The notes below the pieces were generated by a model that had not been told where the DNA came from, made no database searches, and saw only the letters and a list, made by a program, of their open reading frames with translations. A stretch of DNA of 64,000 nt from Pseudodesulfovibrio pelocollis (GTDB lineage: Bacteria > Desulfobacterota > Desulfovibrionia > Desulfovibrionales > Desulfovibrionaceae), in the NCBI RefSeq assembly GCF_030282845.1, contig NZ_JASTWE010000006.1:1-64000 (forward strand). Reading direction: 5' to 3'. The position numbers and the translations under genes are program-made. Every line of letters begins with the position of its first letter. Position 1 is the stretch's first letter. Shown here piece after piece: positions 23,630-47,607 of this stretch.

Positions 23630-24753
23630 TTCGATTCGACGGGGCCGGGCTTGTAGGGGAGCAGCAGGGCGCCGGACTTGAGATCCGTCCTTGGCGTGGC
23701 CGGCCACTGCGGGATGATTGCCTGCCCGGGGAACAGGGGGCGGTGCCTGCCGTAGTCCATCAGGGTCAACCCCTTGTCCGAGCAGGCGTACTGCCCGAGG
23801 CCGCCATGCAAGGGGAAGGGCTCGGAGATGAGGCGCACCGCGCCGAAATCCTTGGCCCCCTTGCGCGAGAGATAGAGGAAATTGAGCGACACGCCGGTCT
23901 TCTCAAGCCGCGCTTCGGACGAAAGCAACTCAAGCCACTTGGGCGCGCCCTTGATCGAGAGATTGAAGTGGCACCAGGGGGCGCCTTGGCCCGTGGCGGG
24001 CATGGGACACTCCAGGGTGTGCGGGCAGGGGGCGATGGGCATGAATCCGTGGGCCATGAACTGGCCGCGCATCTCGGCGATGATGCGGCCGGTCAGGCGC
24101 ACCCCGGTCTCGATGAGCAGGATGCGGCCGGTCTCCTTGCACGCGCCGGTCATGTGCCGGGCGAGCTTTTCGGCCTGGGGCCGGGCGATGCGGCCGGACC
24201 AGTCCAGCTCGTTGAAGGCGTTGGCCGCGATGATCATATCCGCCTTGCGCAGGATGCGGTCGGTGAAGGCCGCCTTGACCGTCTTGACGCGCCACGGGGT
24301 GTCGCCCGCCACGGCGTTGAAGAGTCTGAGGCCTTCCTGCATGGCTTTGGGCACCCGGTCCATGCAGGTGAAGGTGAGCTTGCGCCCCCGCAGATGCGGC
24401 CGCGACATCCACAGGGCGATGACCGAGGTGAGCGGGCCGGAGCCGAGGTCCACCACCTCGCCGTCGTCGGGTATGTCCAGCTCCATGCCGCCGAAGAGGC
24501 GCGACATGCGGTAGAGGTTCCACGGCAGGAAATAGCACAGGTAGGGCGAGAGGAACCGGGCCTCTCCCATGTAGTCGAGCCGCCGCTCGGAGCGCTCGTT
24601 GGTCAGGCTGCGCGACATGTCGCGGATGTCGTACTTGAGCTGCTCCCGATGCTTGGCCTTGAGCGGCCAGACCTGCTTGAGGATGTCGCCAAAGCGTTCC
24701 AGCTCGGCCGTGTTCTCGAACGTGATGTTGGGAAAAAGGCTGTCAATCGACAT
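23626..24753 (-). CDS. Rsm22-like ribosomal small-subunit methyltransferase family protein
   Basis: A 375-residue protein of the Rsm22 family (PF09243). The SAM-binding region is [19 protein letters not shown], and the family zinc/cluster motif appears as [21 protein letters not shown] near residue 250. Mitochondrial Rsm22 homologues act in small-subunit assembly, possibly with an iron-sulfur cluster; the bacterial role is not established. The start overlaps the end of the RACo-like gene by 11 bp, and its stop overlaps the lipB start by 4 bp, so it is firmly embedded in this operon. Confidence 0.85.
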
Positions 24754-26344
24754 GGGTGAAGCGCATCCTTTGCATGAACCTGTGGCCGAAGGAGGGATCG
24801 GCGGTCAGGTCGAGGGCGGTTATGGTGTCCGGCAGCGTCCGGGCAAAGGCCCGTGCCCCGGGATCGGTCACGAGCTTCTCTGTACCCTTGAGCGAGGTGT
24901 TGCCCGCCTTGACGGTTCTGGCTCCCAGGCCGGGCGGCAGGAAACCCAGCGTCTCCAGGTCGTCCAAGGAGACATGCTCGCCCAGGGCCCCGGCGACATG
25001 CACGGCGGCCAGTCGGGACGGGGACAGCCCGGCCTCGGCCAGCAGGGCGGACATGGCTAGGTTGAAGGCCGCCTTGACCTTGAGGATTTCCTCCACGTCC
25101 GAAGCCGGGAGAAAGAGCCCGTGGTCAAGGGCCAGGGCAGGCTCGTCGGCCAGGGTGGTCAGCCGGGCGGCCAGCCTTGCCGCCAGCGGGGTGGTGCCGG
25201 TGGCGAAGTGGCCCGCATCGTCGAGCACGCCATGGCGCAGCAGGATGGCGGTCAGGGAAATATAGCCCGTGCCGGTCATGGCGGTGGGCGGCCCGTCGGC
25301 CGAATCCCCCTCGAAACGCACGGGCGCGAGGCCCTGCGGGGTCAGCCGGAAGCCGGTGATGGTGGACGGCCCGGCGGTGCGGCCAAAGGAGAGGCCGACA
25401 CCCTCCAGGGCCGGACCCATGGGCACGCTGGCCACCAGCCGTCGATCTGGCGACAGGGCCAGGACAAACTCGCCGTTGGTGCCCAGGTCGGCCAGTAGAA
25501 AGGGATAGTGCGGTGCGCTGCCGTACTCGATGGCCACCAGCCCGGCGCTGATGTCCGCGCCCACGAAAGGGGCCAGCAGCGGCGGGATGTGGGCCGGGGG
25601 CAACCCTGCCCCAAGCCTTCGCTCGTCGCCGCCCGCGTAGGTCAGGGCGTAGGGCGCGGCGGCCAGCCCGTCTGGCTGCATGCCGAGCAGGATGTAGGTC
25701 ATGGCCGGGTTGCCGGACACGGCCAGTCCGGTGCACGCGCCGCCCATGTTCCGGGCGGCCATGGCCGCGATCTCGGCCAGCCGGTCAAGGATCAGGGCGC
25801 GCAGCACAAAGCGGCCCTCGGCGGTGGCGGCCACGGCCAGCCGGGACATGATCTCGCTGCCCAGGCCGGTCTGGGGGTTGAGTTCCTGGCCCGTGGCCAC
25901 AGGCTGGCCGTCGGCCAGGACCGTCCAGTGGATGGAGGTGGTGCCGAGGTCCACCGCCAAGACGAAGTCTCCTCCGGCCAAGACGAAGCCGCCTCCGGCC
26001 GGGGCCGCGTCTCCCCCGGATGAAGCCAGGGCGCGCACGGCGCGGGCGCTGCGCACCGGGGCCGGAATCTCCACCTCGCACGGCTCGGACGGATGCAGGC
26101 AGGCCAGCCGCCATCCCTGGTTCAGGGCGTCGCGGCCGAGTTTCTTCAGTTCCTCGCCGGTGGAATCGGGCGGGGCGGAGACGAAGCGCACGCGGCACAG
26201 GCCGCACTTGCCCAGGCCCGAGCACAGCGGCACGTCGTGCCACAAACGGCTCAGGAAGATGGTCCGGGCCAGGCTCTCGCCCAGGCGCGGCTCAAGGGCC
26301 AGGTGGCCGCCGTCTGCGGTGTGTATCAGTATGCTCACGATCAT
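24743..26344 (-). CDS. 2Fe-2S ferredoxin-ASKHA (DUF4445) protein, RACo-like
   Basis: A 533-residue protein. The N-terminus has the plant-type ferredoxin cysteine spacing C41-X5-C47-X2-C50-X31-C82 (CSGLGKCGLC). A linker with AAPAGGGFVLAGGDFVLA leads into an ASKHA ATPase-like domain: VDLGTTSIHWTVLADGQ, then LADLGTNGEFVLAL, VAGALGEHVSLDDLETLGFLP. This is the architecture of reductive activators of corrinoid proteins (RACo/RamA-like). A role in keeping a cobalamin enzyme reduced is inferred from family and from the adjacent cobalamin genes. No corrinoid methyltransferase is in the window. Confidence 0.82.
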   Translation of the reverse strand: MIVSILIHTADGGHLALEPRLGESLARTIFLSRLWHDVPLCSGLGKCGLCRVRFVSAPPDSTGEELKKLGRDALNQGWRLACLHPSEPCEVEIPAPVRSARAVRALASSGGDAAPAGGGFVLAGGDFVLAVDLGTTSIHWTVLADGQPVATGQELNPQTGLGSEIMSRLAVAATAEGRFVLRALILDRLAEIAAMAARNMGGACTGLAVSGNPAMTYILLGMQPDGLAAAPYALTYAGGDERRLGAGLPPAHIPPLLAPFVGADISAGLVAIEYGSAPHYPFLLADLGTNGEFVLALSPDRRLVASVPMGPALEGVGLSFGRTAGPSTITGFRLTPQGLAPVRFEGDSADGPPTAMTGTGYISLTAILLRHGVLDDAGHFATGTTPLAARLAARLTTLADEPALALDHGLFLPASDVEEILKVKAAFNLAMSALLAEAGLSPSRLAAVHVAGALGEHVSLDDLETLGFLPPGLGARTVKAGNTSLKGTEKLVTDPGARAFARTLPDTITALDLTADPSFGHRFMQRMRFTHVD

Positions 26345-26451: not shown

Positions 26452-27243
26452 TCAGCAGCGCGACAGGCGGCGCATGGCGTCGTCCAGGTGGGTCAGCCAG
26501 ATGTCCACCAGGGCGTCGTATTCCCCTGCGCCCTTGAGCACGGGCACACACTCGATGCCCGCGTCTTCGAGCCGGGTCTTCCAGCTGGTCGCCTCCTCGC
26601 CCACCATGTCGCGGGCCGCGTGCCAGCCCGCGCCAAAGAGGAAGGGCAGGAGATAGACGCGCTTCACGCCGCTCCCGGTGAACCGCTCGATGATGGTGTC
26701 GATGCCGGGCTCGGCTTCCATGGCTCCCATGTGCACGGCCTTGTCCCGCGCCTGAAAGGCCTGGTGCAGACAGTCGTAGTAGACGTTGCCGTCGTGCTTG
26801 GTGCCGTGGCCCATGAAGAGCACGGCATCGTGTTCGCTGCGGCCGTGCAGGGCCTCGGCCAGGATGGCGTCCACCACCCTGTCCACCCCGGCCTCGCCCG
26901 CCACCAGGGGAAAGCCCACCTCCACCCGGCTGAAGCCGCCGCGCAGCATCCGCTCGTTGGCCAGCTCCAGCAGGCCGTGGAACTCGGTGCCCGGGATCAG
27001 GTGCAGGGACTGGACGGCCACATGGGTGACGCCCTCGGCCAGCAGCCTGTCCAGGGCGTCGGGCACGGATTCCACTGCCTCGCCCGCCCTGGCCATGTGC
27101 CCCCGGATGGTCTTGGAGGTATAGGCCACGCACACCTGGGTTTCGGGATGCGCCCGGCGGACACACTCGGTGATGCGGGCCAGGGAGGCGACGGCGTTAT
27201 CGTGTCGTGAGCCGAAGGCTGCGAGGACGATGGCTTTCTTCAT
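26452..27243 (-). CDS. cbiK: CbiK anaerobic sirohydrochlorin cobaltochelatase
   Basis: Inserts Co2+ into sirohydrochlorin at the start of the anaerobic cobalamin pathway; 263 residues. The two metal-site histidines of CbiK are recognisable: His146 in FMGHGTKHDGN and His208 in PFLFGAGWHAARDM. AAFGSRHDNA is at the N-terminus. There is no signal peptide, so this would be the cytoplasmic form (Desulfovibrio also has periplasmic CbiK). It begins 12 bp after cbiL, and the two probably function as consecutive steps. Confidence 0.93.
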   Translation of the reverse strand: MKKAIVLAAFGSRHDNAVASLARITECVRRAHPETQVCVAYTSKTIRGHMARAGEAVESVPDALDRLLAEGVTHVAVQSLHLIPGTEFHGLLELANERMLRGGFSRVEVGFPLVAGEAGVDRVVDAILAEALHGRSEHDAVLFMGHGTKHDGNVYYDCLHQAFQARDKAVHMGAMEAEPGIDTIIERFTGSGVKRVYLLPFLFGAGWHAARDMVGEEATSWKTRLEDAGIECVPVLKGAGEYDALVDIWLTHLDDAMRRLSRC

Positions 27244-27255
27244 GTCTCGGCGCTC

Positions 27256-27972
27256 CTACTTCCCGGTGTTTTTCTTGACCAGCGCCAGCGAGAAGTAGTG
27301 CGGCGTGGCGGGCGCGTCCCTGATGTCCATGAGGATGGATTCGCCCTCCATGCCAAGGCGCGACACGAGCACGGTCTTGTCCGACAGCCGCAGCCGCTCC
27401 AGGGTGGACCGGATCTCCTCGAAATTCTTGTAGGCCTTGAGGATAACAGCGTTGTCCGCCACGTCAAGCTGGGCTTCGAGGCGCTGTGGATCGGACACGC
27501 CCGAGGTGATGAGCAGCGATTCCTTGGACTCGCACAGGACCAGCCCGATGTGGGCGGCCGCCGCGTGGAACGAGGTGATGCCCGGAATGACCTGAAGCCG
27601 GATGGTCGGGTCCGTGGCCAGCAGGGTGCGCTGGAGGTAGCCGTAGGTGGAGTATGTCAGCGGGTCGCCCAGGGTGATGAAGGCGGCGTCCAGCCCCTGG
27701 TCCAGCACCCGGGCCACGGCCTTGGCGTTGGCTTCCCAGGCCGCGTTCAGCTCTGCATCGTCCTTGGTCATGGGAAATCCGAGATGCTCCACGCGCACGT
27801 TCGCCTTGAGGTGAGGGCGAGCGATGTCATAGGCCGTGGAGTAGTCGTTTTTGGTGGAGGAGGCGGCAAAGATGACGTCCACCTGCCCCAGGGCGCGGAC
27901 CGCCTTGAGGGTGAGCAGTTCCGGGTCGCCGGGGCCGACGCCGATGCCGTAGAGGGTGCCTTTTTGTGTCAT
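27256..27972 (-). CDS. cbiL: Precorrin-2 / cobalt-factor-II C20-methyltransferase
   Basis: SAM-dependent methyltransferase of the CobI/CbiL group, 238 residues. GTLYGIGVGPGDPELLTLKA is the N-terminal tetrapyrrole methylase motif, DAAFITLGDPLTYSTYGYLQ the central one, and VIPGITSFHAAAAHIGLVLC the substrate loop. The start is ATG 27972, preceded by GGGAGAA; the 635-residue frame that runs on upstream crosses the BtuF-like gene and is not real. It acts on cobalt-factor II, the expected product of the neighbouring CbiK. Confidence 0.93.
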   Translation of the reverse strand: MTQKGTLYGIGVGPGDPELLTLKAVRALGQVDVIFAASSTKNDYSTAYDIARPHLKANVRVEHLGFPMTKDDAELNAAWEANAKAVARVLDQGLDAAFITLGDPLTYSTYGYLQRTLLATDPTIRLQVIPGITSFHAAAAHIGLVLCESKESLLITSGVSDPQRLEAQLDVADNAVILKAYKNFEEIRSTLERLRLSDKTVLVSRLGMEGESILMDIRDAPATPHYFSLALVKKNTGK

Positions 27973-28013
27973 GTAATGGATTCTCCCGTGGGCCTTTCGC
28001 GCCGGGGTGTTTG

Positions 28014-28970
28014 TCAGTTCCAGGCCGTGGGATGGAGCAGGGTGTGGACCGTTTCGATGCCGCGCAGCAGCCGCATGGTGGGCCGCGAGACCAGCCGCTC
28101 GTCCACCAGAAAGACATTGCGGTCGCGCACGGCCTTGATGCGCGACGCCGCCGGGCCGGTGGCGATGTCCCTGACGGTCACCGAGTTCATCGCGCCGTAT
28201 TGCGTGAGGTAGACGTCGATCTGCGAGGATTTGGCCAGCATGCGTTCCAGGCCGTAGTCCGCGATGTTGGTACCCTCGCGAGAGGCCGCGTCGGCGGCCA
28301 CGTTGCGTCCTCCGGCCGTTTCCAGCACGAAGATGGGCATGGAGCCTGGGGCAAAGGTGGCAAACCTGCGGTGGATGGACTCGAAGAACACGCCGGGCCG
28401 CCGGGCCGGGTCGATGCTTTCCATCCGCTGCCGGGCCAGGACAAGTCCGTCCTTGAACCGGCCGACCATTTCCTCGGCCTGCACCTCCCTGCCTGTCAGG
28501 GTGCCCAGGGTGCGCCAGTAGTCGTACATCTCGGAGACGGTGTCCGGCTGCAGGGCGGCGACGGTGACGCCGTGGCGCTCCAAGGCGGCCCACAGGTCGG
28601 GCTGGTCGGCCTGCTGCATGGGCCTGATGAGTATCAGGTCCGGCCGGGCGGCCAGGAGCTTGTCCACGCTGTCGCGGGCAGTGAAGGCAGGTTTTTCGAG
28701 GGCGGTGGAGGGGAAGTCCTCGTGCTCGGTGACGCCGATTATTGCGTCGTCCAGGCCGAGTTGGAAGAGGTTTTCCGTGTGGGCGGAATAGAGCGAGATG
28801 ATCCGGGTGAAGGGCGCGGACACCCCGATGACGCGCCCGGTGTCGTCCCGGACGCTCTGGGCCGGGGCCGGGCCGGGCAGCAGCGTCATGACCATGAGCA
28901 GGGCCAGGATGAGGCGCAGGGCGAGGGGGGACAGGGAGTGAAGAGAGAGTGTGGTGCGCAGGCGGGTCAT
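28014..28970 (-). CDS. BtuF/FecB-type ABC transporter substrate-binding protein
   Basis: A 318-residue periplasmic protein with a signal peptide (TRLRTT, a Leu-rich core, PGPAPAQ/S). The mature part is a class III binding protein: DDTGRVIGVSAPFTRIISLYSAHTENLFQLG, DAIIGVTEHEDFP, then LLAARPDLILIRPM and a C-terminal lobe. These bind vitamin B12, cobinamide or iron-siderophores; cobalamin or a corrinoid is the likeliest ligand because cbiL and cbiK follow directly, but cobalt or iron chelates cannot be excluded. The permease and ATPase genes are not adjacent. AAGGA lies 6 nt before ATG 28970. The frame stays open upstream to 29276, which would bury the signal peptide. Confidence 0.85.
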   Translation of the reverse strand: MTRLRTTLSLHSLSPLALRLILALLMVMTLLPGPAPAQSVRDDTGRVIGVSAPFTRIISLYSAHTENLFQLGLDDAIIGVTEHEDFPSTALEKPAFTARDSVDKLLAARPDLILIRPMQQADQPDLWAALERHGVTVAALQPDTVSEMYDYWRTLGTLTGREVQAEEMVGRFKDGLVLARQRMESIDPARRPGVFFESIHRRFATFAPGSMPIFVLETAGGRNVAADAASREGTNIADYGLERMLAKSSQIDVYLTQYGAMNSVTVRDIATGPAASRIKAVRDRNVFLVDERLVSRPTMRLLRGIETVHTLLHPTAWN

Positions 28971-29318
28971 GTTGAAGTCCTTGGTCTCGGAGGCGATTGT
29001 CATGGGTCCAAAGGCCATGCGGCCGACGATGGCGCGTGCGCAGAACACCGCCCGGATGGTCTCGGGGGTGAGGGCGATGGCCGGGTCGCTCAGGGTGTGC
29101 CGGATGTCCATACTCGAAGTGGGCGCGTCGGGCAAGAGGCCCGGCCCGGACGCGCCCGGCCACCGGCCCATGTCCGTCCCGGCCACCGGAGGGTGCAGCG
29201 GCATCCGGGCATGAATCTCCCTCGTCGGGGGGATCGGCGGGAAAGAGGACGCCCTCTTCCCGTGGCAGTGGTCCATTGGCAGGACGAGGGCGGTTCGTCA
29301 GGGCGTCACGGCAGCGGG
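28971..29318 (-). other. 348-bp gap between cheA-like and BtuF-like genes
   Basis: No gene is assigned. On the minus strand there is a hairpin with a 9-bp bulged stem (about 29239-29263: GGGAAGAGG / CCTCTTTCCC). A short GCCACTG-like and GGGAAG-like pair occurs, but the rest of a cobalamin riboswitch, including a clear B12 box, is missing. From about 29110 to 28971 the frame of the BtuF-like gene has strikingly coding-like third positions. Confidence 0.5.
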
Positions 29319-30992
29319 TCAGGACGCCGCAGTGGCCACGCCCCGAAGCTCCTCGAAATAGTGGAGGATTTTCTCGGTGTCGATGACCAGGGCGTCGGAC
29401 TCGCCCATCATGCCGAAGCCGAGGATGGGGATGTGGAAGATTTCTTCCACCGGCACGGTGAAGCCGGTGATGACCACCTGCTGCTGCCTGAGGACCTCGT
29501 CCACCAGGATGGCGGCCTTGTAGTCGCCCACGCGGACCACGATGGCCTGGGCCATCTCGATGTTCGTGACCTCGGGCTCAAGGCCCAGCAGGTCGGCCAG
29601 CCGGAGCAGGGAATGAACCTCGCCGCGCACGTCCACGGTCTCGCGGCCATCGGGCAGCTCGACCACGTTGTGGTTGCGGGGCATGTATATCTCGACCACG
29701 TCGCGGCTGGGCACGATGAAGGTGTCGCCGCCCACCTTGCAGACCAGGGCCTCCACGATGCCCTCGTTGGCCGAGCGGTCAAGGGGGATTGAGATGGTGA
29801 AGGAAGCGCCCCTGCCCGGTGTGCTCTCAATGGCGATGTCGCCGTCAAGGGTGGTGCGGATGACGTTGATCACCGCGTCCATGCCCACGCCCCGTCCCGA
29901 GACGTCGGTGACCTGCTCGGCGGTGGAGAAACCGGATTGGAGCACGAATTGAAGAATCTCAGGTGTTTCGTATGTCTTGTCCGGGTCGGCAAGCCCCTTT
30001 TCCAGAGCCTTGGCCAGGATGCGGTCCGGGTCCAGCCCGCGTCCGTCGTCGCGCACCTGGATGAAGGCATTGTCGCCCTTGCGCCAGGCCGAGAGGATGA
30101 CGTTGCCCGTCTCGTCCTTGCCTGCCTGTTTGCGGCCATCGGTGGTTTCCAGGCCGTGGTCCACGGCGTTGCGCAGCAGGTGGACCAGGGGTTCGTTGAG
30201 GCTTTCGACAATGGTCTTGTCCAGGGCCAGTTCGTCACCGCGCACCGTGAATTCGAGCTTCTTGCCGATCTTCTGGCTCAGGCTCTTCACCAGCCGGTGC
30301 ATGGGCATGAAAATCTGCTTGAGGGGCACCAGACGGATGGCGTCCACCTCTTTTTGCAACCGGCTGATGACGTTGTCCAGCTCGCGTAGCGAGGCGGCCA
30401 TCTGGGCGAGGTTGCGCGCGCCGCCCTGGGCGATGACCGCGTAGGTGACCATGAGCTTGCCCACCAGCTCGATGACCCTGTCGAGCCTGTCCGTGGGCAC
30501 GCGGATGGAGGAGATGGCCTGGGCGGACGGGGCCTTGTCAGCCTTGTCCGTCTTGGCTTCCGGGGTTTTGGTGGCTTCCTCGTCGCCATCGTCCAGGTCA
30601 TCTTCCCGGGTGGCCTCGAACGAAACCGCAGCCGGGTCCAGAAACGCCCTGGCCGCGGCTTCCTCGCTCTCGAAGCGTTCGCCTTCCACCGCCGCCGGGC
30701 GCGACTCTTTGCGGCCCAGGCCCGCAGTGTCCGCGTCGAGCAGGCCCGCCACGGCGAAGAGGAACCGCTTCTGGGCCTCGCACACGCCGAGCATGGCCGT
30801 GACGATGTCGTCATTGACCGGGGTGATGCCGTCGGTGAGCATGTCGAGCACCGTGATGACGCTCGCGCTGGAGAGTTTCATGTGTGACAGCCCAAGCGCA
30901 TCAACGGCTTCCCCGGCCCCGGTGCCGGAGTCCGCCATGTCGAGAATCTGTTTCTCGATGTCTACGATGCATTTGCTGATGCTGTCCTGCAT
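29319..30992 (-). CDS. CheA-type histidine kinase without a normal P1 domain
   Basis: A 557-residue CheA homologue with dimerisation, ATPase and CheW-like domains. The P3 region starts near RLDRVIELVGKLMVTYAVIA (about 169), the N-box is HLLRNAVDHGLE (271-282, Asn275), G1 is VRDDGRGLDPDRI (313-325), G2 is SGRGVGMDAV (365-374), and the CheW domain covers about 410-545. The N-terminal 160 residues hold no HxxKG phospho-site; only LSHMKLSSA at 35-43 recalls a degenerate P1. The HPt protein encoded 9 bp upstream carries a normal HTIKG, so phosphate transfer in trans is expected. Last gene of a three-gene module. Confidence 0.9.
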   Translation of the reverse strand: MQDSISKCIVDIEKQILDMADSGTGAGEAVDALGLSHMKLSSASVITVLDMLTDGITPVNDDIVTAMLGVCEAQKRFLFAVAGLLDADTAGLGRKESRPAAVEGERFESEEAAARAFLDPAAVSFEATREDDLDDGDEEATKTPEAKTDKADKAPSAQAISSIRVPTDRLDRVIELVGKLMVTYAVIAQGGARNLAQMAASLRELDNVISRLQKEVDAIRLVPLKQIFMPMHRLVKSLSQKIGKKLEFTVRGDELALDKTIVESLNEPLVHLLRNAVDHGLETTDGRKQAGKDETGNVILSAWRKGDNAFIQVRDDGRGLDPDRILAKALEKGLADPDKTYETPEILQFVLQSGFSTAEQVTDVSGRGVGMDAVINVIRTTLDGDIAIESTPGRGASFTISIPLDRSANEGIVEALVCKVGGDTFIVPSRDVVEIYMPRNHNVVELPDGRETVDVRGEVHSLLRLADLLGLEPEVTNIEMAQAIVVRVGDYKAAILVDEVLRQQQVVITGFTVPVEEIFHIPILGFGMMGESDALVIDTEKILHYFEELRGVATAAS

Positions 30993-31001
30993 GGAGTCTC
31001 C

Positions 31002-31727
31002 TTACTGGATCGAAAAATAGGTGTCTTCGTCGGGATACACGGCGATGGTGGCGTCGAATCCCCAGGCGTAGAAGGTTTGCTTGGCGGCGGGGCTCAGGGC
31101 GCAGGCCGCGACCTTGAAGGTGGTGCCCATGCTGGCCACCGTGGCCCAGGCCGTGGAGCCGAAGGTGAGCACTTGGCTCAGGTCGAGCAGTATCTTGTCG
31201 CCCGGCTCCACGCCGAGCACGGCCGAGATGATGGGCTTGTAGTGTCCCTCCAGATGAACGCGGCGGTCACGCACCCTGATGATGGTGACGGTGTCGCGCA
31301 CGGCCACCTCCACCCCGGCTCCGACGGTTTCTGTGCCCACCTGCCTGCTGGCCGATGCCTCGATGATCAGGGCCAGCACCTCCTCCTGCTCCTCCTCGTC
31401 CACGGTGTCGTCCCTGAGTTGCTCAAGCACCTGGAAGATCATGTTGATCCCGCGCGAGAGGAGCGTCAGGTTCTCCTGGGCGGGTTCCACATCGCCGGAC
31501 TGGACCTTCTTGAGGAAATCCTCGATCTTGTGAGTGAAGTGCGAGGCGGGCTCGAAGCCGGGCATGAAGCCGGTGACGCCCTTGATGGTATGCAGCGGGC
31601 GCGAGAGAATCTCCACTCCCTGGGCCACCTCGCCGCCTTCGAGCAGTTCCAGTCCCTCCATCACCTGGGGGTAGTACTTGTCGTTGACCTCGGAGAAGAA
31701 CTCCTCCACCATCGGGTCGTCGCTCAT
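31002..31727 (-). CDS. HPt-STAS fusion protein (phospho-histidine partner of the CheA-like kinase)
   Basis: A 241-residue cytoplasmic protein. Residues 1-105 form an HPt/P1 helical domain with the phosphorylation site SRPLHTIKGVTGF, His46. Residues about 130-241 resemble a STAS (anti-sigma-antagonist-like) fold: VAVRDTVTIIRVRDRRVHLEG, then DKILLDLSQVLTFGSTAW, where family members carry a phosphorylatable Ser. An acidic linker (DDTVDEEEQEEVL) joins them. It lies between the receiver gene and the P1-less CheA gene with gaps of 14 and 9 bp. The likely job is to accept phosphate from the kinase and pass it to the receiver; the STAS part may be an output or localisation element. Confidence 0.85.
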   Translation of the reverse strand: MSDDPMVEEFFSEVNDKYYPQVMEGLELLEGGEVAQGVEILSRPLHTIKGVTGFMPGFEPASHFTHKIEDFLKKVQSGDVEPAQENLTLLSRGINMIFQVLEQLRDDTVDEEEQEEVLALIIEASASRQVGTETVGAGVEVAVRDTVTIIRVRDRRVHLEGHYKPIISAVLGVEPGDKILLDLSQVLTFGSTAWATVASMGTTFKVAACALSPAAKQTFYAWGFDATIAVYPDEDTYFSIQ

Positions 31728-31741
31728 GAATGCTCCCCGTC

Positions 31742-32137
31742 CTACTTGCTGAGAAGATTGAGCTTCTCAAGCTCCTTGTAGAGTTTTTCCTTGACCACGG
31801 GCTTGACGATGTAGGCCGATGCCTCTCCGTCGTAGAAGGATTTCATCACCGTCTGCGGGTCGTCAAGGGCCGTGGTCATGATCACCTTGACCCTCGGGGT
31901 GAGGCCCTCCCGGGCTTCCATCTCCCTGATCTGGCGCAGGGCCTCGATGCCGTCCACCTCCGGCATCATGATGTCCATGAGGATGAGGGCGTAGGGCTGG
32001 TTTTCACTGTGGGCCAGCCTGAAGGCCTCTATGGCTTCGCGGCCGTTGACCACGATCTCCACTTCAAAAAGGGTCATGAGGAAGGATTTCAGGACCTTCC
32101 TGCTCAGAAATTCGTCCTCGACAATGAGTGCTCGCAT
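31742..32137 (-). CDS. Single-domain response regulator (CheY-like)
   Basis: A 131-residue receiver without an output domain. The acidic pocket is Glu7-Asp8 (IVEDEF), the phospho-acceptor Asp55 is in LILMDIMMPEVDG, the switch Thr is in IMTTA (88-89), and Lys112 is in YIVKPV. It is the first gene of the module receiver - HPt/STAS - CheA, so it is the probable phosphate sink and output of this pathway. The target is not evident from the sequence. Confidence 0.92.
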   Translation of the reverse strand: MRALIVEDEFLSRKVLKSFLMTLFEVEIVVNGREAIEAFRLAHSENQPYALILMDIMMPEVDGIEALRQIREMEAREGLTPRVKVIMTTALDDPQTVMKSFYDGEASAYIVKPVVKEKLYKELEKLNLLSK

Positions 32138-46611: not shown

Positions 46612-47607
46612 TCAGCGCTTCTTCTTGTGTGTCTCGATGAGGGCGGCGGCGCGCTGGGCGAGGTACGTGATCTCGGGCTTGGATATCTGGTCGTCCGCGC
46701 CCACGGCCTCGCCCCGGTAGCGCAGCTTCTCGGTGATCAGCGAGGAGAAGAGGATGACCGGGATGTCGCGCAGGACGGGGTCGTCCTTGATGCGCCGGGT
46801 CAGGTGGTGGCCGTCCATCATGGGCATTTCGATGTCCGAGACGATGACCTGGACGTAATCCGTGATGGGGCGGCCTTCATCCACGGCGCTCTGCTTGATC
46901 TCCTTGAGCCGGTCCCAGCACTCGCGGCCGTTGTTGGTCTTTTCCACGCGGAATCCGGCCTGGCCGAGCATGTCGCGGATCATTTCGCGGATGAGCGGGG
47001 AGTCGTCGGCGATGAGGGCGCGGTAGCGCTCCGCGGTGTTGAACTCCACATTGTCGTCGAGCTTGAGCCGCATCTCGGGGTTGAGCTCCGAGACGATGCG
47101 CTCAAGGTCAAGGATGAAGACGATGCGGTCATCGAACTTGACCACGCCGGTGATGGAGTCGCTCGACAGGGCCGAGACGTATTTGTTGGGTGCCTCGACA
47201 TCCTCCCAGCTGATGCGGTGGATGCGGGTGACGCCCGAGACCATGAAGGCCGAGGTGACCTGATTGAATTCGGTGACGATGACCTTGGGCGGTTCGTTTT
47301 CCACGCGGCGTTTCTTGAGCCACATGGCGAGATCGAGCAGGGGAATGATGCGCGAGCGCAGGTTGAAGGCGCCGAGCACGGACACATGGGAGACCTCGGG
47401 CATTTCCGTGACATCGGGCATGCGGATGATTTCCAGCACCTTGGCGACGTTGACGCCGAAATAGCTCTTGCGCGTCTTGGGTGCCCCTTCGGTCCGGGGG
47501 GACGGCGAATCGTCGTTGTTCTTGGGAATTTCCTCAATGTAGAACTCGACGATTTCCAGTTCGTTGGTTCCCGCCTCAAGCAGGATTTCGCTCGTCTCGG
47601 TGGACAT
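46612..47607 (-). CDS. cheV: CheV, CheW-receiver chemotaxis coupling protein
   Basis: A 331-residue adaptor that couples receptors to CheA and can be phosphorylated. Residues about 35-180 form the CheW domain (KSYFGVNVAKVLEIIRMP, VLGAFNLRSRIIPLLDLAMWL, VVKFDDRIVFILDLERIV). Residues about 205-331 form the receiver: ALIADDSPLIREMI, phospho-site VIVSDIEMPMMDG, SSLI, and SKPE. The receiver acceptor Asp and the acidic pair are intact. It is isolated and convergent with hypE. Its kinase is presumably a CheA elsewhere, or the P1-less one in this window (not shown). Confidence 0.95.
   Translation of the reverse strand: MSTETSEILLEAGTNELEIVEFYIEEIPKNNDDSPSPRTEGAPKTRKSYFGVNVAKVLEIIRMPDVTEMPEVSHVSVLGAFNLRSRIIPLLDLAMWLKKRRVENEPPKVIVTEFNQVTSAFMVSGVTRIHRISWEDVEAPNKYVSALSSDSITGVVKFDDRIVFILDLERIVSELNPEMRLKLDDNVEFNTAERYRALIADDSPLIREMIRDMLGQAGFRVEKTNNGRECWDRLKEIKQSAVDEGRPITDYVQVIVSDIEMPMMDGHHLTRRIKDDPVLRDIPVILFSSLITEKLRYRGEAVGADDQISKPEITYLAQRAAALIETHKKKR

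Follow-up and report, generated by a model that had tools for sequence, protein, structure and literature searches.

A conserved candidate bipartite CheA of the Desulfovibrionales with its phospho-acceptor histidine on a predicted STAS fusion protein

An Hpt domain freed from CheA is functional, according to the part of PMC10782961 that deals with such cases, and its presence as a gene of its own in the CheA operon points to a bipartite system. CheAs consisting of P3-P4-P5 alone are noted for four species besides Rhodobacter sphaeroides in the pertinent passage of PMC2829493, and the portion of PMC3591291 devoted to split kinases, whose ultrasensitivity is modeled there, cites a count of 11 split versus 470 complete CheAs. 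Because bipartite CheAs are already in print in these and other reports, the division as such is of a known kind. Here we describe a trio of minus-strand genes in a 64,000-nucleotide stretch of the genome of the sulfate reducer Pseudodesulfovibrio pelocollis (contig NZ_JASTWE010000006.1, positions 1 to 64,000; hereafter, the window), which encode in this order a lone receiver, a protein joining an HPt to a STAS domain (HPt-STAS), and a CheA-type kinase. Judged by sequence, the trio is a real, conserved candidate bipartite CheA. What is new is the STAS fusion on the phospho-carrier, the apparent retention of a degenerate P1 (pseudo-P1) in the kinase, and the conservation within the order Desulfovibrionales. 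No account of these features, nor of the four-gene module REC-PP2C / GHKL-STAS / HPt-x-STAS / CheA considered below, appeared among the papers listed in searches of the open-licence PMC literature. The features are as follows.

31742..32137, minus strand: lone receiver, 131 amino acids, phospho-acceptor Asp55 at codon 31973-31975 (Pfam Response_reg, E 1.2e-19)
31002..31727, minus strand: HPt-STAS protein, 241 amino acids (Pfam; AlphaFold model)
31350..31727, minus strand: HPt domain, residues 1-126, five predicted helices, His46 at codon 31590-31592 (conserved active residues; VIA)
31005..31316, minus strand: predicted STAS domain, residues 138-241, Ser191 at codon 31155-31157 (Foldseek, alignments)
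29319..30992, minus strand: CheA-type kinase lacking a functional P1, 557 amino acids (Pfam and alignment)
30729..30992, minus strand: putative pseudo-P1 (degenerate P1), residues 1-88, with the His-bearing segment missing (HHalign, model, Foldseek/VIA)
30522..30728, minus strand: variable linker of the kinase, residues 89-157 (low identity among relatives)
29322..30521, minus strand: P3-P4-P5 of the kinase (dimerisation, GHKL ATPase, CheW-like), residues 158-557 (Pfam; invariant ATP-site residues)

In the open reading frame (ORF) list, gaps of 14 nucleotides (receiver to HPt-STAS) and 9 nucleotides (HPt-STAS to kinase) separate the genes. A first-pass annotation of the window had given coordinates and motifs for the trio, which agree with the ORF list, Pfam, and the alignment.

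Like the trio, the R. sphaeroides CheA3/CheA4-CheY6 system, in the sections of PMC10782961, PMC2829493, and PMC3591291 concerned with it, combines a P3-P4-P5-only kinase, a P1 supplied by a partner, and a receiver. According to those sections, CheA3 terminates in a CheW-like P5, and its 794-residue middle is active as a phosphatase, whereas the P1 of the trio is fused to STAS without a P5, and the trio kinase probably retains a pseudo-P1. The first-pass annotation held that known split CheAs divide kinase and P1 differently; this is right for the P1 carrier and wrong for the kinase half, which resembles CheA4 (P3-P4-P5), so that the division in the trio differs from that in R. sphaeroides mainly in the carrier. 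The bipartite CheAs of PMC10782961 likewise comprise a CheA without Hpt and an Hpt protein from the same operon; they differ in that the word STAS is absent from the main text, and section 10 of that source gives no species for them. In Synechocystis PilL-N/PilL-C (Hik36/Hik43), CheA is also split into Hpt and kinase proteins, but the genes are distant from one another and belong to a type IV pilus system, and the part of PMC7656254 that describes them mentions no STAS. Finally, in the Pseudomonas aeruginosa HptB-HsbR-HsbA pathway, an Hpt feeds a partner switch of PP2C, serine kinase, and anti-anti-sigma factor; as presented in the relevant part of PMC5812489, however, Hpt, REC-PP2C-kinase, and antagonist each form a protein of their own, and hybrid sensor kinases, not CheA, act as donors.

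Pfam matched H-kinase_dim (23.5 bits, cut-off 23), HATPase_c, and CheW in the trio kinase, all over their cut-offs, and P3, P4 (GHKL), and P5 (CheW-like) of a CheA core are thus all present. The N box lies at residue 271, G1 at 314, the F/G region at 355, and G2 at 393, in agreement with the earlier description of complete N, G1, and G2 boxes and a CheW domain. Fourteen columns from the N box, G1, and F/G region were tested, and all were invariant in 29/29 aligned kinases, comprising that of the window and 28 others (L052, which has a frame break, was left out). The same protein gave no Pfam match to Hpt, and the HxxKG site that a self-sufficient CheA would carry is missing from its residues 1-160, as had been noted.

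The missing domain is found next door. Pfam Hpt matched residues 34-93 of HPt-STAS with 25.4 bits (cut-off 24.6), and an HTIKG motif starts at His46. His46, Lys49, Gly50, His66, and Glu69 are kept in 30/30 sequences and match the active-site cluster of CheA P1. The AlphaFold model (mean pLDDT 86.9) has a five-helix HPt followed by a complete STAS fold, while the relative placement of the two domains is unsure because pTM is only 0.51. In VIA, the HPt matched Salmonella CheA P1 (1i5n, Z 16.7) and, from a structure with CheY6, the P1 of R. sphaeroides CheA3 (Z 15.6). The STAS family PF01740 scored 21.0 bits, just below its cut-off of 22.6, and was thus missed by the profile; in the model, by contrast, the STAS fold was recovered, with about 104 residues superposed by VIA on several STAS structures (Z about 14, rmsd about 2) and a best Foldseek match to SpoIIAA (1tid, E 9.8e-5). 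Six Foldseek matches had E <0.001, namely five SpoIIAA chains from SpoIIAB complexes and one RsfB. The prediction suggested by the first-pass annotation therefore confirms, at the level of a model, that the protein carries a CheA-type HPt and a real STAS domain. The STAS domain has few invariant columns (Arg156 and Ser191, 18/18 rows). Ser191 is S in 29/30 and T in 1/30 sequences and aligns with the GS-motif serine of the anti-sigma antagonists 4qtp and RsfB; its position may correspond to that of the phosphorylatable serine of SpoIIAA (Ser58 type). Pfam found no CheW match in HPt-STAS, which thus lacks a C-terminal CheW-like P5, and P2 in neither HPt-STAS nor the kinase. The 131-residue protein at the head of the trio matched a receiver, as first annotated, and its Asp55, Asp8, and Glu9 are invariant in 29/29 aligned rows. 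With Hpt in HPt-STAS and none in the adjoining kinase, the claim that kinase and phospho-histidine reside on separate proteins stands, and the pair of adjacent genes has the make-up of a bipartite CheA.

A survey of relatives, also called for by the first-pass annotation, showed the arrangement to recur within the order. Full-length HPt-STAS was found in 30 of the 150 genomes of an order sample, and the same 30 genomes contain the kinase orthologue (E <=2.5e-87, the next CheA standing at 3.4e-77). The two genes are adjacent in all 30, and the receiver lies directly upstream in 29/30, the exception being genome G010. These genomes fall into seven genera (g1, 13 genomes including the window's; g13, 6; g2, 4; g6, g8, and g18, 2 each; g25, 1), across which the HPt-STAS of the trio persists. 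In a species-genome collection, 120 relatives were found via short motifs, by which divergent relatives may be missed, and among the 80 that were kept, 28 loci (L077-L104) contain HPt-STAS. Labels of Pseudodesulfovibrio, Desulfovibrio, Salidesulfovibrio, Humidesulfovibrio, Halodesulfovibrio, Desulfocurvus, Desulfovibrionaceae, or Desulfovibrionales apply to 22 of them; the other 6 are broadly labeled (e.g., Proteobacteria), and two of these, L089 and L092, coincide with genomes from the window's family. Of the 28 loci, 26 have the kinase and 27 the receiver, and the gaps (kinase in L087 and L098, receiver in L103) all concern short or contig-end stretches. The remaining 52 of the 80 kept loci matched in the HPt part only, and in 44 of them the same ORF matches the kinase too, as in an ordinary CheA. 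Since six loci, with identical last 200 residues, are common to both sets, the trio is conserved over 52 distinct loci, with mostly the same gene order. In a phylum sample of 395 genomes, full-length HPt-STAS was confined to 3, all of the window's family; in 40 others, matches to the HPt-STAS profile end at position <=191, in frames of 139-955 amino acids.

The best explanation of the trio is a bipartite CheA phosphorelay, to which we assign a probability of roughly 0.7. The P3-P4-P5 kinase, presumably governed by chemoreceptors via its CheW-like domain, would phosphorylate His46 of HPt-STAS in trans, and from HPt-STAS the phosphate would move on to Asp55 of the receiver, whose gene lies just upstream. 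This path from kinase through HPt-STAS to receiver is the simplest reading because the kinase keeps its ATP site without an acceptor, and because in the sample the HPt is always present and a receiver with its Asp nearly always. The kinase's own P1 would have lost its His-bearing helix and survived as a domain that cannot be phosphorylated. STAS would form a second surface on a mobile phospho-carrier, most likely as an interaction module for a GHKL-type partner, which could be a partner-switch kinase or the P4 domain itself. From the gene set, the domains, the intact catalytic and phospho-acceptor residues, and their co-conservation, all of which are observed directly, we infer phosphotransfer, receptor control, and a function of STAS. 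Receptor control appears likely because of the CheW-like P5 and the 18 chemoreceptor-domain matches in the same genome. Several points weigh against the bipartite phosphorelay. There is no chemoreceptor, CheW, CheB, or CheR gene within the trio, and elsewhere the genome encodes two more CheAs with Hpt, kinase, and CheW domains, from which the HPt or the receiver might also draw phosphate. The pair in the divergent relative G010 lacks an adjacent receiver. Mean identity to the window is 0.46 for STAS versus 0.71 for HPt, and because of this lower conservation the role of STAS is the weakest step.

The N-terminus of the kinase is a domain and not debris, because mean identity to the window is 0.56 over its 88 residues and drops to 0.18 in the adjoining linker. 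HHalign aligned it to the P1s of 44 CheAs, gathered using motifs of the HPt-STAS family, with a probability of 86.7 and E 4.4e-6 over 82 columns; controls reached at most 15.8 (60 column-shuffled profiles), 14.7 (60 block-shuffled), and 0.1 (reversed profile). A ten-column gap in this alignment covers HTIKG, a segment absent from the kinase. AlphaFold predicted four helices for the N-terminal fragment, the second of seven residues, in five models with pLDDT from 86.5 to 67.6. The structure prediction that had been suggested for this region thus placed CheA P1 at the top of the lists, albeit with weak scores: Foldseek gave E 0.3 to 1.2 for CheA P1 structures, and VIA ranked Thermotoga maritima CheA P1 first (Z 6.8 over 72 residues), not far ahead of an unrelated receptor and designed four-helix bundles (Z 5.5 to 5.8). 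Two results speak against a pseudo-P1. The N-terminal profile did not match the narrow set of HPt-STAS P1s (probability 0.4), and against PDB sequences it gave only four unrelated matches at E up to 10. Taken together, sequence profiles and models support a conserved, degenerate P1 without its His-bearing helix.

The first-pass annotation had singled out the stretch LSHMKLSSA in this region as a possible worn-out P1. The kinase N-terminus does look like a worn P1, but in the profile alignment the histidine of that stretch, His37, falls about 13 residues beyond the former phospho-His position. It is H in only 17/29 kinases (otherwise N in 4, C in 3, S in 2, and R, K, and A in 1 each; H in 21/26 rows of alignment A3), and it cannot therefore be a conserved phosphorylation site. 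A functional phospho-His in the kinase N-terminus, which had been named as a finding that would overturn the split, is rejected on account of this variability together with the place of His37 beyond the missing HTIKG segment. Judging from the alignments, LSHMKLSSA is no remnant of a phosphorylation site.

Two proposals for the STAS domain are compatible with the bipartite phosphorelay. The stronger, though in our estimate at somewhat less than even odds, is that HPt-STAS is a junction to Ser/Thr partner switching. An RsbW-like GHKL kinase and a PP2C would have STAS as their substrate or ligand, and a single protein would thus be read both by a His-Asp relay and by an anti-sigma-type switch. 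The first-pass annotation had guessed at such an anti-sigma route. The conservation of Ser191 agrees with it, as does the neighborhood of the most divergent pair, that of G010 (locus L076; HPt-STAS 32% and kinase 36% identical to those of the window). There, genes for a SpoIIE-type PP2C and a GHKL-STAS protein (270 amino acids, HATPase_c_2, weak STAS match) stand directly before HPt-STAS, preceded on the same strand by those for a PAS histidine kinase, a hybrid kinase, a receiver, and an HD-GYP protein.

With this GHKL protein as the query, 28/150 order genomes were hit at E <=1e-6, and 11 regions were fetched, ten for having HPt or CheA genes nearby and one (G015 contig 67) for 81% identity; members of L204, L208, L209, L211, and L214 were checked by Pfam. 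A second HPt-STAS family, of about 375 amino acids, was thereby found in operons in which REC-PP2C, GHKL-STAS, HPt-x-STAS, and a complete CheA follow one another in that order, in 7/11 regions (L204-L207, L211-L213; GHKL-STAS is split into two ORFs in L207 and L213). L208-L210 have the first three genes and no CheA match within the fetched stretch. In L210 the first two are fused (L210:4417-6330) into one frame of 637 amino acids, a layout like HsbR plus a STAS. In L204 and L211, Pfam shows that CheA and HPt-x-STAS each retain an Hpt domain. Matches to HPt-x-STAS that reach at least column 370 of 387 occur in 23/150 order genomes; the first ~260 columns of this profile also match frames of ~1,050-1,130 amino acids in other genomes. 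In view of L076 and the module survey, HPt-STAS fusions take two forms in the order, one of them within a partner-switch set.

Other findings speak against a junction, of which the window itself gives no sign. The immediate neighbors of the trio are genes for a periplasmic binding protein (Peripla_BP_2, downstream) and a divergently transcribed SpoU methylase (upstream), with neither a GHKL serine kinase nor a PP2C next door, and there is no HATPase_c_2 match on its contig among the 16 matches listed. The three partner-switch cassettes of the same genome (L200, L201, L202) each have a STAS protein of their own, the GHKL gene 81% identical to that of G010 stands in G015 (L214) with a PP2C gene and no HPt-STAS in the fetched stretch, and the kinase tree rejects a grouping with the module CheAs of the family (see below). 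Hence, the neighborhoods of L076 and the module operons favor a partner-switch link that the trio's own surroundings do not share, and the anti-sigma guess rises from speculation to a testable lead. The wider proposal that HPt-STAS proteins of the Desulfovibrionales are CheA/partner-switch junctions in general, the trio being a pared-down form whose kinase ceded its P1 to the carrier, strikes us as rather unlikely.

A phospho-His on a STAS protein suggests a link between two signaling systems that are usually separate. If STAS were read by a serine kinase, chemoreceptor arrays would be wired directly to partner switching, and chemoreceptors could control an anti-sigma-type switch with no DNA-binding response regulator involved; in HptB-HsbR-HsbA, as far as the part of PMC5812489 describing it goes, the Hpt reaches the partner switch through separate proteins. 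Split CheAs are rare and few have been studied, and the natural pseudo-P1 of the trio offers a testable purpose.

In the second proposal, which we regard as tentative and a little less probable than the junction, STAS serves for docking or dimerisation and keeps HPt close to the kinase or array, in place of the covalent P1-P3 tether and P2. Kinase and HPt-STAS occur together in 30/30 of the sampled order genomes that have either orthologue, the lack of P2 in both proteins would fit such a replacement, and STAS binds GHKL in SpoIIAA-SpoIIAB, the best Foldseek match. On the other hand, R. sphaeroides CheA3 has a CheW-like P5 that HPt-STAS lacks, and a docking surface sits poorly with the scarcity of invariant STAS columns. 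That the trio is a decaying or non-functional CheA system, as the lost P1 histidine of the kinase and frame breaks in its gene at two loci might suggest, is highly improbable, given the invariant active-site columns noted above and the persistence of the genes in seven genera, and the frame breaks may be sequencing errors. These breaks lie in the linker in L052 and in the pseudo-P1 in L084, and represent either sequencing error or real loss.

The kinase tree had 69 rows after 20/89 core rows were dropped, and 18/98 rows were dropped before the HPt tree, every dropped row belonging to the CheA set L105-L156; groups were named after tree inspection, and long branches include L124 and L076. The split kinases (12/69 rows) fall on one side of a branch with SH-aLRT 99, outside the module CheAs. 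Derivation of the trio kinase from a CheA of the four-gene module was not supported: joining the split kinases with the module CheAs of family f1 plus L216 and L220 was rejected (approximately unbiased test, p-AU 0.0006), while joining them to a wider Desulfovibrionales clade was not (p 0.15). By this phylogeny, the split kinases and the module CheAs of the family are probably not closely related. A single clade of the HPt domains of both HPt-STAS kinds was not rejected either (p 0.63, 111 columns). An origin of STAS within ordinary CheAs was likewise discarded, as the STAS profile had no match at E 10 in the 2731 ORFs of L105-L156. Four CheAs of this set (L109, L116, L131, L155) have an unassigned region of ~140 residues before Hpt and a receiver gene <=36 nucleotides upstream; this region showed no profile likeness to pseudo-P1, STAS, or P1.

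Past the trio on the same strand, window positions 26452-29276 hold the Peripla_BP_2 gene and, further on, one for a CbiK cobaltochelatase. Of 29 relative loci, 26 have a CbiK homologue downstream on the same strand, which in 24 is no more than 340 bp away from the kinase, and the divergent SpoU methylase gene is upstream of the trio in 26/29. A RACo-type corrinoid activator (RACo_C_ter, E 1.4e-41) is encoded at 24743-26344, near these cobalamin genes, and a CheV-like gene, with a CheW match followed by a receiver-like stretch judged by eye, at 46612-47607 on the minus strand. The usual neighbors are absent within the fetched stretch from L070 and L075 of genus g6; the divergent neighbors in L070 are HDOD and sigma-54 activator genes, and the ORFs found there in L075 have similar N-termini.

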